This document shows positions 2-52,669 of a stretch of DNA of 64,000 nucleotides, piece by piece; the first letter of the stretch is position 1; each line of letters opens with the position of its first letter. The stretch spans positions 62,001-126,000 of the forward strand of contig NZ_JAHEDV010000002.1 of assembly GCF_024641065.1 (NCBI RefSeq), in the 5' to 3' direction. The notes under the pieces are model-generated. The model did not search any database. It worked only from the letters and a program-made list of their open reading frames with translations, and had not been told where the DNA came from. This DNA comes from Rhodoluna sp. (GTDB taxonomy: Bacteria > Actinomycetota > Actinomycetes > Actinomycetales > Microbacteriaceae). Made by a program: the position numbers and the translations under genes.

Positions 2-742
2 TTAGCGAACCTCATTCACAAAAGCTAGAGACTGGGCGATGCCATCAAAGATATCGCCACCGGTGTAGAAATCAAACTCAATAACCGGCAGTGCATTTGG
101 TGCAGCAGCCAAAATTTCACGAACCGGAATCTGACCTTGACCTGCAGGAACCTGAAGGTTGACATCACCATTCTTGTTGCCGTCTTTGACATGGATAGCA
201 ACCACGCGCTCGCCAAGCTTCTTTAGAACCTCAGGGGCGCTCTGGCCACCTGCTTCAACCCAGAAGGTGTCGATCTCTAGAACAACATCGTCGCGCAGAG
301 CGTCGATGAAAGTGTAGAGAGCTGGTGCGCCGTCGATGTGGTTTGAGAACTCCCAGTTGTGGTTGTGATACGCGATCTGCAGACCAAAGTCTGGCGCTGC
401 GGCAGCGATCTCATTGATTGCCTTTGCTATTACAACAACATCGTCTTTGTTGGTCCAACGCTCAGGAACAGTGAATGGGTCGATAAGAGTCTTGACTCCA
501 AGCTTCTGCGCAGCAGCAAGCATTGGCTTCCAGTCTTGGTCAACCATCATCGCGTGAGCGGTTGGGGCCTTCAAATTATTGCGAGAAAGTGCTTCTGAAA
601 ACTCTTCTACTCGGTCGACAAATCCATAAGGCTCCACCTGGGTGAAACCGATGGCTGCAACTCGGTCGAGTGCGATCTGTAGATCATCAGCGATAGCGTC
701 TCTCAGGGTGTAGAGCTGAACTGATGGTTGTTGCTTAGACAT
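2..742 (-). CDS. Sugar phosphate isomerase/epimerase (xylose isomerase-like TIM barrel)
   Basis: 246 aa ORF; motifs such as QIAYHNHNWEF, LEIDTFWVEAGG and VAIHVKDG are typical of the AP endonuclease 2/IolE-like family; adjacent to sugar ABC genes. Confidence 0.85.
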   Translation of the reverse strand: MSKQQPSVQLYTLRDAIADDLQIALDRVAAIGFTQVEPYGFVDRVEEFSEALSRNNLKAPTAHAMMVDQDWKPMLAAAQKLGVKTLIDPFTVPERWTNKDDVVVIAKAINEIAAAAPDFGLQIAYHNHNWEFSNHIDGAPALYTFIDALRDDVVLEIDTFWVEAGGQSAPEVLKKLGERVVAIHVKDGNKNGDVNLQVPAGQGQIPVREILAAAPNALPVIEFDFYTGGDIFDGIAQSLAFVNEVR

Positions 743-805: not shown

Positions 806-1639
806 CTAGCCCTTGACCGCGCCATCCATGACACCGGCAACAAACTGCTTAGCGGTGACGATGAACATTGCAATCAGTGGCAGGGCCATAAGCAGCGAGC
901 CGCCAAGGATAGACGGGTAGCTCGGGTTGTTGGCCGAGTTCAGCTGAGAAACTGCCACCTGAGCGGTGAAGTTGTCTGGAGTCTGAGTGATGATCAACGG
1001 CCAAGCGAAGTCGTTCCAAGCGGTAAGGAATGTGAACAACAGCAATACGAATGCGCTTGAGCGAACCAGCGGTAGAGCCAAGCTCCAATAGATTCTGAAG
1101 AATCCGGCGCCGTCAACTGCACCTGAGTCGATAAGCTCGCTCGGCACGTTTGAAAGCATTGCCTGACGCATCCAGAACACACCAAACACTGAAACCACGT
1201 ATGGCAAAATCAGTGCGGCCAAAGTGTCGACCAAACCAATCTTTGACATCAATAGGTAAAGCGGAATGATGCCCAGCTGAAGCGGAATCATTAGGAACAC
1301 CATGACCACGCCAAAGAGCGCCTGGTTGCCGCGGAAGCGAAGTTTTGCAAATGCAAAGCCAGCCAGGGTCGAGGTGAAAACCTGAAGAATCGCGGTAACA
1401 GCCGCAACGATGAATGAGTTGCGATAGACGGTCCAGATGTTGAACATCTCGGTGATCTGCGCAAAGTTAGCCGGCCAGTTGTTGCCAGGAACAATGGTTG
1501 GCGGAATTGTTGCGATTGCCGAGTTGTCTGATGAACCGATTACGTACATCCAGTAGAACGGGAACAGGCTTAGCAAAGCAACGATGATAAGCATTCCGTA
1601 GAGCGAAGGCTGCTTGAGCCAGCTGAATGAGATCTTCAT
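806..1639 (-). CDS. Carbohydrate ABC transporter permease (MalG-type)
   Basis: 277 aa, multiple TM segments; EAA-like loop 'ELIDSGAVDGAGFFRIYWSLALPLVRS'. Confidence 0.9.
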   Translation of the reverse strand: MKISFSWLKQPSLYGMLIIVALLSLFPFYWMYVIGSSDNSAIATIPPTIVPGNNWPANFAQITEMFNIWTVYRNSFIVAAVTAILQVFTSTLAGFAFAKLRFRGNQALFGVVMVFLMIPLQLGIIPLYLLMSKIGLVDTLAALILPYVVSVFGVFWMRQAMLSNVPSELIDSGAVDGAGFFRIYWSLALPLVRSSAFVLLLFTFLTAWNDFAWPLIITQTPDNFTAQVAVSQLNSANNPSYPSILGGSLLMALPLIAMFIVTAKQFVAGVMDGAVKG

Positions 1640-1641
1640 GA

Positions 1642-2550
1642 TTATTTGTCTGCCTTAACTAGCTTGCTGCTGATTAGAAAGTTGACTCCAGCAATGATCG
1701 CGATGATCAAGAACAGGCCAACTGCAATTGCTGATGAGTATCCGAGTCGCAACTGGGCAAACGCCTGGTCGAACAAGAACAGTGTCATCGTTCTAAATTG
1801 CCCGTCTGAACCACCGGCATAACCGGTGCCGCTGAACATATATGGCTCGGCGAAAATTTGCAGACCACCAATGGTCGAAGTGACCACGGTGAAGAAGATG
1901 GTTGGGCGAATCTGAGGAATGGTGATGTTGAAGAACTGAGACAACTTAGTTGCTCCATCAACTTCGGCGGCTTCATAAAGCTCGGCCGGAATCGCCTGCA
2001 GTGCTGCCAAGAAAATCAGGGTGTTGTAGCCAGTCCAGCGCCAGTTGACCATCATCGCGATTACAAACTGACCGGCTAGGCCATCTGCGTGCCATGGAAC
2101 CGGCCCAACGCCTAGAAAACCAAGGGCCCAGTTGACCATTCCACCGTTGTCGGCAAACATCGCACCGAACACAACTGCAACCGCAACGGTTGAGGTGATG
2201 AAAGGGAACAAGATCACTGAGCGCCAGAAGGTGCGAAAGCGAAGTTTTTTGTTATTCAACACGAGGGCCAGAAGCAACGCTGCTACTAGCTGAGGTGCTG
2301 ATGAAAGCAAGAAGATGCTGATGGTGTTGCCCAGGGATGAATAGAAGCGCTCATCGGCAACAAGTTCAATGTAGTTGTCTAGACCGACCCACTCTTGGGT
2401 GCCCAGAAGGTCCCATTTGAAGAATGAGACATAGAAGGTGAAGATGATCGGCAATAGGCCGAAGATGCCGAAAAGAAGGAAGAACGGTGACAAGAAGAGG
2501 TAACCAGCTCTTGATTCTTCTTTTCTAGAGATGTGAATAGCTTTGCTCAC
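1642..2550 (-). CDS. Carbohydrate ABC transporter permease (MalF-type)
   Basis: 302 aa; EAA loop 'ELYEAAEVDGATKLSQFFNITIPQIRPT'. Confidence 0.9.
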   Translation of the reverse strand: MSKAIHISRKEESRAGYLFLSPFFLLFGIFGLLPIIFTFYVSFFKWDLLGTQEWVGLDNYIELVADERFYSSLGNTISIFLLSSAPQLVAALLLALVLNNKKLRFRTFWRSVILFPFITSTVAVAVVFGAMFADNGGMVNWALGFLGVGPVPWHADGLAGQFVIAMMVNWRWTGYNTLIFLAALQAIPAELYEAAEVDGATKLSQFFNITIPQIRPTIFFTVVTSTIGGLQIFAEPYMFSGTGYAGGSDGQFRTMTLFLFDQAFAQLRLGYSSAIAVGLFLIIAIIAGVNFLISSKLVKADK

Positions 2551-2633: not shown

Positions 2634-3881
2634 TTACTTGGTGTTCTTTGCGATCTCGGCTAGAGCGTCTGCCCATGCCTCATCTGCGGTCTTCTTGCCC
2701 TGAGCAACAGTGGTGGTTGCGTTCTGGAAAGAGGTACCGATGCTTGCGCTCTTAGGGCCAAGGATGGCTGGCTTAAGAGTTGCAACAGCTGATGAGTAGA
2801 TCTGACCTACTGGAGCGTTCATGTAGAACGGGTCCTTGTAAGAAGTAACTGCCTCGTCGTTTAGAGCTGCAACAGCTGAAGGGAAGTTTCCCTTGGTTAG
2901 GAAGATAGTCTTCTGCTGTTCTGGAGCCAATAGCCACTCAACGAAAGCCTTAGCTTCTTCTGGGTGAGCTGATGACTTTGAAACGGTGACCCATGAGCCA
3001 CCCCAGTTGCCGCCGCCACCAGGTACAGAAGCTACGTTCCACTTACCCTCGGTCTTAGGAGCAATTCCCTTGATCATGGTTAGCATCCAGGCTGGAGCGA
3101 GAACTGCTGCTGCGTTGCCGTCGGCAATTGCTGCGTTCCACTCGGTGCTGAATACAGCTGCTGAACCTGCGTAAGGAGCGATGTCGGTTGCGGTCTTCCA
3201 TGCAGCCTTAACTGATGGGTTAGTCTCGTAAACGTAGTCGCCTGAAGCTGAGTAGTACTGCTCAGGGGTCTGAGCAACGATGCCAGAGAATACGCTCTGA
3301 GTTGAGTCAGCAAACTTCTTGCCGGTCGCGTCGGTGTACTTCTTAGCGGTTGCTAGGTAGCCGTCCCAGCCATTTGCCCATAGAGCAGAAACTGACTCAG
3401 GGTCTGATGGAAGGCCAGCAGCTTCGAATAGGTCGGTGCGGTAAGCAACAGCCATGCCACCAACGTCGGTTGGTAGACCCAGAACGGTGCCGTCAGTTGC
3501 AACGGCTGGGTTCCAGCGCCAGTCAAGGTAGTCAGCTTGCTTGTCGGTACCGAAGTCAAGGAACTTGTCTGGGTACTGAACGAAGTAAGGCATCCATGAC
3601 CCTTCGACACCGTTGATGTCGTTACCCTTGCCAGAAGCTAGAGCGGTCAAAAGACCTTCGTGGTGCTTGTTGTATTCGCTTGATTTCTCAACGATGGTGA
3701 TGTTCGGGTGTAGGTTGTGGTACTCGGTGAATAGCTCTTTGAAACCCATGTCGCCCCAGTCACCAAAGGTGAGGGTGATGTTTTCTTCTTCAGCCGGAGC
3801 TGCAGAACAGCCTGATAGGCCAACAGCGGTCATCGCAAGCAGGAGAACAGATGCGATCGACGCCTTTGTTGCTTTCTTCAT
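2634..3881 (-). CDS. Extracellular sugar-binding lipoprotein (ABC substrate-binding protein, family 1)
   Basis: 415 aa; signal peptide with lipobox 'MTAVGLSGCS'; upstream of two sugar permease genes. Confidence 0.9.
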   Translation of the reverse strand: MKKATKASIASVLLLAMTAVGLSGCSAAPAEEENITLTFGDWGDMGFKELFTEYHNLHPNITIVEKSSEYNKHHEGLLTALASGKGNDINGVEGSWMPYFVQYPDKFLDFGTDKQADYLDWRWNPAVATDGTVLGLPTDVGGMAVAYRTDLFEAAGLPSDPESVSALWANGWDGYLATAKKYTDATGKKFADSTQSVFSGIVAQTPEQYYSASGDYVYETNPSVKAAWKTATDIAPYAGSAAVFSTEWNAAIADGNAAAVLAPAWMLTMIKGIAPKTEGKWNVASVPGGGGNWGGSWVTVSKSSAHPEEAKAFVEWLLAPEQQKTIFLTKGNFPSAVAALNDEAVTSYKDPFYMNAPVGQIYSSAVATLKPAILGPKSASIGTSFQNATTTVAQGKKTADEAWADALAEIAKNTK

Positions 3882-3949: not shown

Positions 3950-3973
3950 AAAACCATTCACATAGCAAGTTTT
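3950..3973. promoter_or_regulatory. Candidate operator AAAACCATTCACATAGCAAGTTTT in the SBP/TetR divergent region
   Basis: 22/24 identical to the reverse complement of 52567..52590 upstream of the GH3 operon; AAAAC/GTTTT arms. Confidence 0.65.
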
Positions 3974-4017
3974 AGCGATAACGGTTTCATAACCAACTGA
4001 TTACAGGAGTATAAATA

Positions 4018-4620
4018 ATGGCCGCGAAACAGCCTAGAGGCCCGTATTCAAAAGGAAATGCCAAGCGCGAAGAGATTTTGGCTAAAACCATTGAAGCGTT
4101 CGGTAAAACGGGATATCACGCAACTTCAATGCGTGAAATTGCTGCTGCTTGCGACTTGAGCCAAGCCGGCCTGCTCCACCACTTTCCGAACAAAGAAGCG
4201 ATTTTGCTGGCTTTGGTAGACCAGCGCGAGAAGCGACAGACCGAGAGAACAGTTCAACACCGCAAGGCAGGCGAGCTCAGCTGGCAAGAGAGCTCACTTG
4301 GCGGCCAGAAGATCAACGAAGAAGAAGCTGACCTAACCCGACTCTGGGCAAACCTGGTTGGCGAAGCCACCGACCCGAGCTTTCCGATTCACGACTACTT
4401 TCTTGAGCGCTATCGAAACACCCGCAAGACTTTCGCTGACGACATAGCCAAAGATCACGGTCGCACCACCCCAAACCGAGAAGACGAGCTTCAAGCGGCA
4501 ATCATGATTGCTATCTGGGATGGCCTGCAGACACAGTGGCTGCTTGACCCAAAGTTTGAAATGCGCCCAGCATTTGAATATGCGGTTTCAATGATCAGCC
4601 GCTATTCGCAGTTCAAATAG
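4018..4620 (+). CDS. TetR/AcrR family transcriptional regulator
   Basis: N-terminal HTH 'TSMREIAAACDLSQAGLLHHFPNKEAILLALV'; divergent from the sugar ABC operon. Confidence 0.9.
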   Translation: MAAKQPRGPYSKGNAKREEILAKTIEAFGKTGYHATSMREIAAACDLSQAGLLHHFPNKEAILLALVDQREKRQTERTVQHRKAGELSWQESSLGGQKINEEEADLTRLWANLVGEATDPSFPIHDYFLERYRNTRKTFADDIAKDHGRTTPNREDELQAAIMIAIWDGLQTQWLLDPKFEMRPAFEYAVSMISRYSQFK

Positions 4621-48273: not shown

Positions 48274-50037
48274 TTAGACGCTGAGCCCGGCTCCGTAGGC
48301 AAAAGTTGGCGAAGCCGTGTCATATGGCACATCAGACTTGCTCGCCAAGATCGCCTCCAGTGATGAAGGCAATTCAATTGGCAAACGCCCCTTGGCTAGC
48401 TTTGGGTTTTGCAGAACATCCATGAAGGCATTTGGGTTCGAACCAAAGTTGGCGGTGACCACTGCTGCAGCCTCGGCAATTTCGGGGAACACCGCTGCTC
48501 GGTCGAGATAGATGTCGAAGATGGTCGGAACCGTCTTGCAGATCTCAACAATTCGAGCAACTTCTGCAGACGGAAACTCAAGCGAGCCCGCGTGAAAAAT
48601 TGCTTCGAAGCCACCTGGGCGTGGGTCAAAGTGAGCATTTTTGCGAACGATTGCCAGGTCGGCTTCGGCAGGGTTGCCAACCACCTGGCCCAAGCGGCCA
48701 GCTTTGTCGGCGTCGAGCCCTTCGACATAAATTTTTAGCCCGGCAGGCAGCGGCAACTGAGCGGCACCCTCGGCAGCCAGCTTGAGCAAAACATAACCGG
48801 CCCGCTGAGCAGCCTCGCCAGCGGCCAGGAATTCAGGCTTGCCAACAATCGCATCGGCAGCAGCCTCATCAACAAAACGTTCTTCGTCGAATAATCCGAG
48901 AATGAACTTCTCAGCCAAAAGTTTTGCAGCCGAGTAGTTAATGCGTTCTTCAGAGATTCGACCCTCGCGAACCAATTCAACGATCAGCTCTGGGCAAGAT
49001 TCGCCACCGAACTGGTCAGAGCCGGCATTGATTGCCTTTTCAACTCTTTCGCTTCGACTTAGGTGTTCAACGCCCCAAGCGCGAGCTGGCATATCTTGGC
49101 CAAGAATATTGGCGTCGGTAATCAAGCCCCAGTCGGTGCAGATGATGCCTTCAAACCCGAGTTCACCCTTGAGCAAGTCGGTGAGCACGCCTTTGTTGAA
49201 ACCAAAGCCAACTTCTTCATACTTGGTGCCGATCGGTTGACCGTAATACGGCATCATTGCGCGGGTGCCAGCAGCGATTGCATCTTTGAAAGGCTCAACG
49301 TGATAGTCAAAGTTGTTGCCCGGGTAGACCTGCTCTTTGCCATATTCAAAGTGCGGGTCTTCACCATCAAGTTGCGGGCCGCCACCCGGAAAGTGCTTAG
49401 TCATGGTCGACACCGAAGACTTGCCAAAAACCTTGCCCTGAAATCCACGGATGTAGGCAGCGCCTACCGCACCCGATTGCTTAGCGTCTTCGCCGAAAGT
49501 CATACCCGAGCGAGCCCAACGTGGTTCAGTTGCCAAGTCGATTTGTGGGTGAAGCGATGCGTGAATGCCTACGGCGCGATATTCCTGACGAGCAATGTCA
49601 CCGAACTGTTCAACAACTTCAAGATCGCCGATGGCACTAAAGGCTAGCGATTCAGGCCACTGCGAGAATGCACCCGAACTAAAGAGTGCGCCTTGGTTTT
49701 CTGCAAAGGCGTGACGAGGGTCGGTAGAGATTGTCACCGGAACACCAAGACCTACCTCGGCCGCAATGCTTTGCAGCTTGTTATGCCAGCGGGCCATTTC
49801 GCTGCCCTGCTTTGGTACACCGTGAACATTAAAGTGAGTGATGCGCTTCTGGCGAATCAATTCTTCAGTGGCCACGCCCCAAGGCGAACCCGATGGCAAC
49901 AATTCGCCACCCGGGAGCATCGGTGCAATCTCGTGAAACATCAGGCCGGCTTTATCTTCGAGCGAAAGTCTCGGCAGCAAGTCGGCAACGCGCTCGGCAA
50001 CCGTTAGCTTCGGGTCTTGATATGGCAATGCGTTCAC
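48274..50037 (-). CDS. Glycoside hydrolase family 3 protein
   Basis: 587 aa; 'KHFPGGGPQLDGEDPHF', nucleophile region 'FEGIICTDWGLI'. Confidence 0.93.
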   Translation of the reverse strand: MNALPYQDPKLTVAERVADLLPRLSLEDKAGLMFHEIAPMLPGGELLPSGSPWGVATEELIRQKRITHFNVHGVPKQGSEMARWHNKLQSIAAEVGLGVPVTISTDPRHAFAENQGALFSSGAFSQWPESLAFSAIGDLEVVEQFGDIARQEYRAVGIHASLHPQIDLATEPRWARSGMTFGEDAKQSGAVGAAYIRGFQGKVFGKSSVSTMTKHFPGGGPQLDGEDPHFEYGKEQVYPGNNFDYHVEPFKDAIAAGTRAMMPYYGQPIGTKYEEVGFGFNKGVLTDLLKGELGFEGIICTDWGLITDANILGQDMPARAWGVEHLSRSERVEKAINAGSDQFGGESCPELIVELVREGRISEERINYSAAKLLAEKFILGLFDEERFVDEAAADAIVGKPEFLAAGEAAQRAGYVLLKLAAEGAAQLPLPAGLKIYVEGLDADKAGRLGQVVGNPAEADLAIVRKNAHFDPRPGGFEAIFHAGSLEFPSAEVARIVEICKTVPTIFDIYLDRAAVFPEIAEAAAVVTANFGSNPNAFMDVLQNPKLAKGRLPIELPSSLEAILASKSDVPYDTASPTFAYGAGLSV

Positions 50038-50058: not shown

Positions 50059-52524
50059 TTAGCCGACGTTGACTTCGATTTTGGCAATGATGTCGACAAC
50101 CGAGGTACCGACATGCAGTTCAAACTTGCCGGCCTCATACTGCCAGCCGTCTGACCAGTGAGCGAACTCACGGCCGCGAATCTTCACCTCGGCAAGAACA
50201 GTTTCGCCAGCTTCGGCATTTACTTCGACAAAGCCAACCAACCAACGAACCGGGCGATCAACTGAGCTGTTGTTGCGCGATGCATACACCTGAACGACCT
50301 GCTTGCCCTTTCGTGCACCAGTGTTGGTGACCGGCACCGACAACTTCAGATCTGAACCAACGCCGATTGCCTTAGGCGCATTGACGTCGCCGAAAGTCCA
50401 GCTGGTGTAGCCAAGGCCAAAACCAAAGTTGAAGGCTGGGGCGACGTTGTCTTTCATCCATGCGCGGTAACCAATGTGAATGCCCTCTTCATAAACAACC
50501 TGACCGTCTACCGGTGTGCAGTTTGAAACTGGCAGGTCAGACTCGTCAATTGCCCAAGTGGTTGGCAGGCGGCCGCCAGGTTCTTCGGCACCGGTCAGAA
50601 TCTCGACCAGAGCGTTGCCCATTTCTTGACCAGCAAAGTAGGTGAGCAAAATTGCCTTCACTCGGTTGCGCCACGGCAAGATCACCGGTGAACCCGAGTT
50701 CACGATGACAACCACGTTTGGGTTCACGGCAAGCACTGCTTCAACCAGCTCGTCTTGGCGACCAGGCAGAGCCAACGACTTGCGGTCAATGCCCTCTGAC
50801 TCGACTGCCGAGTTGGTACCCACAACCACAATCGCAAGCTCCGCGTTTTTAGCGTTCTCGACAGCTTCGGCAATCATGGCGTCACCAAGTGATTTGTTCG
50901 GCTCAAATCCAAGGATGAATGCGAAGGCCGCAGATTCAATACCAACGCGACCGGCAAGGTCGATTTCGGCAACAATGCGAACAGTTTTGCCAGCAACCAA
51001 GTCAACTGGTGCAGTGACGAATGGTGGGTCCATCAGGTCAGAGAATGGGTCTTCGCTGGTGCGAGGAATCAACTGATCAATCAGAACGTCACCGTCAACA
51101 GTCACCTTGTTGTAGCGAGTGTTAGCTACGCCCATAAGTTCGGTGCGGGTTTCGGTTGGAGTGAAATCGGTGGTGAAGCGCAGGCCGTGAGCAGCCGCAA
51201 TTGGTGAGCCAGAGCCCAGCCACATTAGGTTGCTGCCACCGCGAGTTTCGGTAAAGATCGGCTGGCCGTCTTCGCCCAAAAGTTCAAGGTGCGCACCAGC
51301 CTCACCGGTGATTGGGTTTTTCAGTTCATCTTTTGGCAACTCGGCCAAACCGTGCTGAACTACTGCGCCGATTGAATAACTGAGTTTGTCGCCAAGCAGT
51401 TTCTTGAGCGCCTGAAGCGGGGTCACCACAGTCTTTGGCATAACGGTTGCTGAGCCACCGCCCTGGGTTCGGGCAACTGAAGCGTTGTTTCCGATGAGGG
51501 CAACCTTGCCAAACTTGTTGAAGTCAATTGGCAGGCTCTGCTCTTGGTTGCGAAGCAAGACTGAGGTCTGAACCGCTGCTTTGCGAGCGAAAGCTACATC
51601 TTGGTCAGAAATGTTGTTGTGACGAGGCTTTTGCGCAGGGGTCGAGCCGTCAGCGCCGATTGCACCAACTCGAATGGCCAACAGAATCATGCGCTTGATC
51701 TTGCGGTCGATGGTTTCTTCTGCAATCTCGCCACTGCGAACCGCATTGATTAGGTTCTGTGACCAAAACTCAGTTGGGCCAGGCATCTCTAGATCTTGCT
51801 CATAGTTTGCCGAGTCAAGGGTTCGCACGGCTGTCCAGTCGCTGATGACTACACCGTCGAATCCCCATTCGCTGCGAAGCGGAGTTTGCAGCAGGTCGTT
51901 CTCGGTCATGGTCTTGCCGTTCACCGAGTTGTAGGCACTCATGATTGTCCAGGCCTGCCCATCAACCACAGCGTCTTCAAACGGGCGAAGGTAAAGCTCG
52001 CGCAAGGTGCGCTCGTCAACGGTCACGTTAGCGGTGAAGCGTTCGGTTTCAAAGTCGTTGGCCACATAGTGCTTAGGGCACGCGCCAATTCCGGTTGACT
52101 GAATGCCTTGGGTGAACGAGGTGGCTAGGGCACCGGTAAGCATCGCGTCTTCACTCAAGCACTCAAAGTGTCGGCCACCAAGCGGTGATCGGTGCAGGTT
52201 GATGGTTGGGCCAAGAACAACGTCAACGCCCTTGCGTTGAGCTTCGCTACCGAGCGTGCGGCCATACTCGGCAGCAAGTGTTGGGCTCCAAGATGAACCA
52301 AGTGCGGTGCCCGATGGAAGGTTGAGTGAGTTGTCGCGTTCATCCCAGAATTCACCACGCACACCAGCAGGGCCATCAGAGAGCAGCATGTTGCGCAGAC
52401 CGATTGATTCGAGCGGAACGGTGTTCCAAAAATCACGACCGGTAAGCAGTGAAACCTTTTCTTCAAGGCTCAGCTTGGCGGTTAGGTCATCGATGCGTGA
52501 AACAAGGTTTGTCATTCGAGGCAC
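50059..52524 (-). CDS. Glycoside hydrolase family 3 beta-glucosidase
   Basis: 821 aa; 'LLTGRDFWNTVPLESIGLRNMLLSDGPAGVRGE', 'KHYVANDFETERF', 'FDGVVISDWTAVRT', C-terminal fibronectin-III-like domain. Confidence 0.95.
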   Translation of the reverse strand: MPRMTNLVSRIDDLTAKLSLEEKVSLLTGRDFWNTVPLESIGLRNMLLSDGPAGVRGEFWDERDNSLNLPSGTALGSSWSPTLAAEYGRTLGSEAQRKGVDVVLGPTINLHRSPLGGRHFECLSEDAMLTGALATSFTQGIQSTGIGACPKHYVANDFETERFTANVTVDERTLRELYLRPFEDAVVDGQAWTIMSAYNSVNGKTMTENDLLQTPLRSEWGFDGVVISDWTAVRTLDSANYEQDLEMPGPTEFWSQNLINAVRSGEIAEETIDRKIKRMILLAIRVGAIGADGSTPAQKPRHNNISDQDVAFARKAAVQTSVLLRNQEQSLPIDFNKFGKVALIGNNASVARTQGGGSATVMPKTVVTPLQALKKLLGDKLSYSIGAVVQHGLAELPKDELKNPITGEAGAHLELLGEDGQPIFTETRGGSNLMWLGSGSPIAAAHGLRFTTDFTPTETRTELMGVANTRYNKVTVDGDVLIDQLIPRTSEDPFSDLMDPPFVTAPVDLVAGKTVRIVAEIDLAGRVGIESAAFAFILGFEPNKSLGDAMIAEAVENAKNAELAIVVVGTNSAVESEGIDRKSLALPGRQDELVEAVLAVNPNVVVIVNSGSPVILPWRNRVKAILLTYFAGQEMGNALVEILTGAEEPGGRLPTTWAIDESDLPVSNCTPVDGQVVYEEGIHIGYRAWMKDNVAPAFNFGFGLGYTSWTFGDVNAPKAIGVGSDLKLSVPVTNTGARKGKQVVQVYASRNNSSVDRPVRWLVGFVEVNAEAGETVLAEVKIRGREFAHWSDGWQYEAGKFELHVGTSVVDIIAKIEVNVG

Positions 52525-52566: not shown

Positions 52567-52590
52567 AAAACCTGTTATGTGAATGGTTTT
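52567..52590. promoter_or_regulatory. Candidate operator AAAACCTGTTATGTGAATGGTTTT upstream of the GH3 operon
   Basis: AAAACC/GGTTTT arms; reverse complement is 22/24 identical to 3950..3973. Confidence 0.65.
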
Positions 52591-52669
52591 GTGTCGACGT
52601 TATGAAACTGTGAAAATTGGCCGGTCAGGCCGCAATAAATATTGAGCTCGAGGTTAGCTGCCCGTGAGG

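Follow-up and report, generated by a model that had tools for sequence, protein, structure and literature searches.

The locus

The window, a stretch of 64,000 nucleotides from the genome of a Rhodoluna species (G000), carries a sugar ABC operon with a divergent tetR gene at its left end and a two-gene GH3 operon 48 kb away. Related 24-bp elements, identified by sequence comparison, precede both operons. The features are as follows.

2..742, minus strand: AP_endonuc_2 TIM-barrel protein, isomerase/epimerase-like
806..1639, minus strand: sugar ABC permease, UgpE/MalG-like
1642..2550, minus strand: sugar ABC permease, UgpA/MalF-like
2634..3881, minus strand: sugar ABC solute-binding lipoprotein (SBP_bac_8, 7.8e-29), first gene of the putatively controlled operon
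3950..3973: candidate TetR operator 1, a degenerate 24-bp palindrome between the divergent solute-binding protein (SBP) and tetR genes
3984..3993: companion element GTTTCATAAC, upstream of operator 1 relative to SBP
4018..4620, plus strand: TetR-family regulator, 200 aa, a probable repressor and autoregulator (Pfam TetR_N, 5.4e-16; orthologs)
48274..50037, minus strand: second GH3-family protein, 21 bp downstream of the first and probably in the same operon
50059..52524, minus strand: GH3 glycosidase, Celf_0468 beta-glucosidase-like, 821 aa
52556..52583, minus strand: promoter-like TTCACA-16-TACACT for the GH3 gene, with its -35 hexamer inside operator 2
52567..52590: candidate TetR operator 2, before the GH3 operon
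52599..52608: companion element GTTATGAAAC, upstream of operator 2 relative to GH3

The N-terminal HTH of the regulator (PF00440, 58.5 bits against a cut-off of 24) places it in the TetR family. The larger GH3 protein is most like the Celf_0468 beta-glucosidase model, scoring below its cut-off. Left of the window, the ABC operon also encodes a pair of Gfo/Idh/MocA oxidoreductases, another AP_endonuc_2 TIM barrel, and a Bcr/CflA MFS transporter. To judge from these families, an ABC importer together with dehydrogenases and TIM-barrel isomerases suggests catabolism of glycosides or inositol-like compounds. A strong hairpin, GGGGTGCGCTATTGCGCACCCC, lies at 2593-2616 between the SBP and first permease genes; such hairpins are often found where the binding protein is expressed above the permeases.

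A repeated 24-mer

An earlier note on this DNA had drawn attention to a 24-mer in the gap between the SBP gene (start 3881, minus strand) and tetR (start 4018, plus strand), with an inverted partner before the GH3 operon. Its coordinates and sequence are exact: AAAACCATTCACATAGCAAGTTTT at 3950-3973 (plus strand) matches AAAACCATTCACATAACAGGTTTT at 52567-52590 (minus strand) in 22 of 24 positions. Operator 1 lies 68 bp from the SBP start and 44 bp from the tetR start; operator 2 lies 42-51 bp from the GH3 start, which is either 52524 (GTG) or 52515 (ATG). A chance match had been judged very unlikely, and 100 shuffles of the sequence produced none, with the caveat that a match chosen as the best in an entire window is less surprising than one from a comparison fixed beforehand. 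When every 24-mer in the window was compared with every other at up to two mismatches, this was the sole dispersed pair, along with one local hairpin. Scanning the genome (1.43 Mb in 33 contigs, 91% complete) with the 24-mer at up to three mismatches found the two window copies and no third. It is recurrence in relatives, described below, that settles the reality of the pair.

The companion decamers also are present as first noted: the element, GTTTCATAAC at operator 1 and GTTATGAAAC at operator 2, stands 8-10 bp upstream of the two operators, relative to SBP and GH3, and these two copies in the window compare with 0.08 expected. Genome-wide there are three copies of GTTATGAAAC, the third inside a carB-like coding sequence, and no other intergenic copy. 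The simplest guess is that this element is the site of a second, sugar-specific factor.

Conservation beside TetR orthologs

A search with the window's TetR identified orthologs in five genomes of the genus (G002, 81% identical; G025, 80%; G018, 60%; G051, 58%; G058, 46%) and in one of another genus (G332, 45%). Footprinting in these relatives, which the earlier note had proposed, shows the palindrome recurring beside orthologs of the adjacent TetR and GH3. In the gap between tetR and GH3, G018 carries AAAACCATTCAGTTGATTGGATTT (one mismatch to the pattern), G051 carries AAAACCAATCGACCGATAGGTTTT (no mismatches; the site also is given as AAAACCTATCGGTCGATTGGTTTT), and G332 carries TAAACCTCTCATCTGAAGGGTTTT; G058 has AAAACCAATCAACACATGGGTTTT upstream of tetR. 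The two nearest orthologs, in G002 and G025, have no operator at their own tetR. In G051, the GH3 operator (L065 13850-13873) overlaps the 3' coding end of tetR, so that the same nucleotides are coding and regulatory at once. G332 has a second operator-like palindrome, AAAACCTACAGGATTATAGGTTTT (L070 12169), between genes for an alpha/beta hydrolase and a solute-binding protein.

Because these sites around TetR orthologs are cleaner palindromes, both window sites can be recognized as degenerate members of a 24-bp palindrome, AAAACCAATCA-NN-TGATTGGTTTT, each with one good half. Operator 1 is the weaker, with four mismatches to the consensus pattern. The palindrome near tetR is conserved; that it is the inverted-repeat target of TetR itself is predicted. 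In a leave-one-out PWM analysis, every site outscored all non-site positions in 157 kb. A sequence-only model (R1), trained without the MFS sites considered below and applied genome-wide, regained both window sites and the Bcr/CflA site, with weak E-values (0.005-0.46) that are not decisive by themselves.

The footprint extends well beyond the genus. In other Microbacteriaceae, TetR homologs (36-43% identical) are often encoded divergently from GH3, with AAAACC(A/T)TAC-N4-CTCGGTTTT between. The best 80 named actinobacterial loci come from Leifsonia, Agromyces, Microbacterium, Rhodococcus, Humibacillus, Kribbella, Nonomuraea, and others. AAAAC-N13/14-GTTTT occurs at positions -300 to +30 of the tetR match in 30 of them, and once in the remaining 630 kb. 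It lies upstream of tetR in 27 of 31 loci with a divergent GH3 gene versus 3 of 49 without (Fisher, 6.6e-14; the loci are mutually related, so the p-value overstates their independence, but the contrast is still plain). The palindrome measures 24 bp here; other genera have a 23- or 24-bp form. Variant palindromes upstream of tetR at L030 (AAAACAGACAGAGGTGTCTGTTTT) and L051 (AAAACAGAGTGAGTACACTGTTTT), in sub-clades, suggest that the operator may have drifted while its AAAAC/GTTTT ends were conserved. TetR homologs at L030, L105, and L153, from another Microbacteriaceae genus and Streptomyces, have no GH3 match in the flanks examined and adjoin AP_endonuc_2 TIM-barrel genes, hinting at a possible wider glycoside theme.

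Within the genus, the closest relatives of the larger GH3 protein are in G022 (66-67% identical) and G026 (62%), neither of which has the operator or a close TetR ortholog (G022 encodes no more than a 31% TetR homolog). The tetR-linked GH3 proteins of G018 and G051 are only 45-48% identical to it, and an operator is present at a GH3 gene from Kribbella that falls within the same larger branch. Either the operator was gained before GH3 here, or it was lost in G022 and G026.

G000, G002, and G058 all have their genes here in the order GNAT, variable block, tetR, clpC. In G002, a single MFS gene makes up the variable block; it shares 53% identity with the gene that ends the G000 operon. The G000 sugar block has a candidate TetR site at both ends: operator 1 and AAAACCAATCGAGTGGCAGGTATT (G000:C23:56387). 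Within the genus, the ABC operon was seen beside tetR in G000 only, so its control draws no support from conservation. SBP orthologs were considered as such support and dropped: none of the 15 relatives checked has an operator at its SBP gene, and all of these proteins are at most 47% identical and encoded in other operons.

A wider candidate regulon

The genus was scanned with the pattern AAAACCWWTCRNNYGAWWGGTTTT at up to three mismatches, with the reversed pattern as control. G000 has six matches versus none for the control; operator 1, at four mismatches, is missing from this list. Over all genomes, there are 16 places in 6 genomes with the TetR versus 10 in 61 without it (reversed control, 2 and 19). 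The five G000 places other than operator 2 each lie immediately before a gene: a Bcr/CflA MFS transporter (NCBIfam TIGR00710, above cut-off); two MFS transporters of unclear class; an EmrB/LmrA-like MFS transporter; and the following pair.

L058 5488-7527 (G000:C23:55487-57526): MmyB-like HTH gene and zinc alcohol dehydrogenase gene, sharing a divergent promoter with a candidate TetR site, at the far end of the sugar block

Thus, four unlinked MFS genes carry the site, two of them of drug-efflux type. The companion GTTATGAAAC is absent at the MFS operators. Bcr/CflA orthologs have the site in five of five TetR-containing genomes versus none of seven evaluable genomes lacking TetR (p=0.0013). 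For the second MFS gene the counts are four of six versus none of 13 (p=0.004), the two TetR-containing exceptions being 49%-identical homologs. The MFS contrasts therefore allow sister species to act as natural controls. GH3 orthologs have the site in three of three TetR-containing genomes versus none of two lacking it. Three genomes with TetR and MFS sites (G002, G025, and G058) have no GH3 ortholog. A role for the nearest TetR orthologs in regulating a GH3 gene was therefore rejected, and the MFS genes are the main candidate targets found in these three genomes.

The earlier proposal, that the adjacent TetR co-controls sugar uptake and GH3 glycosidases, is supported by comparison in its choice of regulator. 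It drew the regulon too narrowly, given the four MFS genes and the HTH/alcohol dehydrogenase promoter.

Could a different TetR paralog, with a similar operator, read the MFS sites while this TetR controls the GH3 and ABC promoters? The MFS sites do differ somewhat, with an ACC-rich core and weaker outer AAAA/TTTT, and the genome encodes other TetR-like candidates, the second-best match being only 35% identical over the HTH. This division of labor nevertheless seems doubtful: MFS and GH3 sites share the same length and palindrome, and the MFS sites, present with the window-type TetR (also in the three genomes where GH3 is missing), are absent without it.

A model for control

The same palindrome in the tetR-GH3 gaps of relatives, and the concentration of sites in TetR-containing genomes, make the adjacent TetR by far the best candidate regulator of both window sites, as the earlier note had supposed, and the palindrome very probably its switch. 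There is a strong likelihood that the 24-mers are operators through which TetR (4018-4620) would repress its own gene and the ABC operon, the GH3 operon, and the MFS genes until a ligand releases it.

Presumably, a TetR dimer binds directly to the palindrome AAAACCAATCA-NN-TGATTGGTTTT where it overlaps promoters. It would thereby repress, rather than activate, its own gene together with the divergent sugar ABC, Gfo/Idh, and TIM-barrel operon; the two-gene GH3 operon; and a number of MFS transporter genes at unlinked loci. TetR would be freed by a ligand, probably a glycoside or the corresponding aglycone, so that glycoside uptake and cleavage might be coordinated with transport or export of the products. 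Repression and release are suggested by analogy with TetR family behavior. The placement of sites is consistent: operator 2 covers the -35 hexamer of the sole promoter-like match before GH3, and the operators at Bcr/CflA genes stop about 6-16 bp short of the start codon, which fits a repressor blocking RNA polymerase. Around operator 1, there was no match to a classical promoter.

It is highly improbable that another regulator binds the 24-mer with TetR a bystander, whether of LacI type or the MmyB-like HTH protein encoded left of the window. LacI proteins are the usual regulators of sugar operons, the MmyB-like gene has a site in its own promoter, and the companion GTTATGAAAC hints at a second factor; yet the site adjoins tetR in many genera and, within the genus, is concentrated in genomes with TetR. 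LacI-type sugar operators are short palindromes with a central CG, whereas the center of the consensus here is variable and has no such CG. A LacI reading of TGAAACCGTTATC was set aside, since it has one exact match in the window and otherwise occurs at chance level. No MmyB-like HTH gene was seen on the examined contigs of G018, G051, and G332.

That the 24-mer is a core promoter or activator element is suggested by its overlap with TTCACA before GH3, but this is scarcely credible for a palindrome that tracks the distribution of TetR and, at Bcr/CflA genes, ends at a distance from the start codon that suits a repressor.

Relation to known regulators

The earlier remark that TetR control of a sugar regulon would be unusual is only half right, since two precedents exist. 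BgrT proteins are TetR-family beta-glucoside regulators predicted by comparative genomics in Bifidobacterium and other Actinobacteria (PMC4746261). Their genes lie near bglX-type beta-glucosidases and ABC or MFS transporters, and palindromic operators precede the regulated genes. Here likewise, tetR adjoins the ABC operon in the window and GH3 in G018, G051, G332, and 31 named loci. The window TetR would thus resemble BgrT as described; the best 80 named loci include no Bifidobacterium BgrT. BgrT motifs are 18-22 nt, with MFS transporters for beta-glucosides or galactosides, and the regulons are described as local; the operator here is 23-24 bp, its sites occur at several unlinked G000 loci, and its candidate targets include Bcr/CflA and EmrB-type transporters as well as Gfo/Idh and TIM-barrel enzymes.

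The second precedent is GusR/UidR, the established, glycoside-released TetR-type repressor of the Escherichia coli glucuronide operon (PMC9881133; PDB 6ayi), which similarly governs a glycosidase and a glycoside transporter. Among PDB entries, UidR ranks second for the profile, and the window protein matches 6ayi mainly over the HTH. The relationship is distant: hydrolase, transporter class, and ligand differ, the candidate targets here being GH3, ABC, and MFS genes rather than beta-glucuronidase (gusA) and GusB.

The drug-efflux repressors AcrR, TtgR, and MtrR share the TetR fold and efflux-type targets. Regulons of that type center on efflux, whereas the operator here is common to glycosidase and sugar ABC genes. 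A literature search on TetR, glycoalkaloids, and aglycone efflux yielded nothing usable.

Implications

It is conceivable, as a tentative proposal, that a single Rhodoluna TetR links the scavenging of glycosides (by GH3 hydrolases, the ABC importer, and Gfo/Idh and TIM-barrel enzymes) to drug-type MFS exporters, sensing glycosides or aglycones as both food and toxin. Its regulon would have been rewired by operator moves: some species would retain the MFS arm alone, and here an operator would have been placed before a GH3 gene from another lineage, whose closest counterparts in the genus are without the site.

Drug-type MFS transporters and glycosidases under one TetR would suggest linked substrates, a link open to testing; Rhodoluna lacicola is naturally transformable (PMC11577799). 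A visual match has become a defined candidate regulator-operator pair that can be traced across Actinobacteria. It may serve in predicting the glycoside regulons of streamlined bacteria from fresh water, about whose regulation little is known, and would offer a case of regulon rewiring in which sister species with and without TetR provide the controls.
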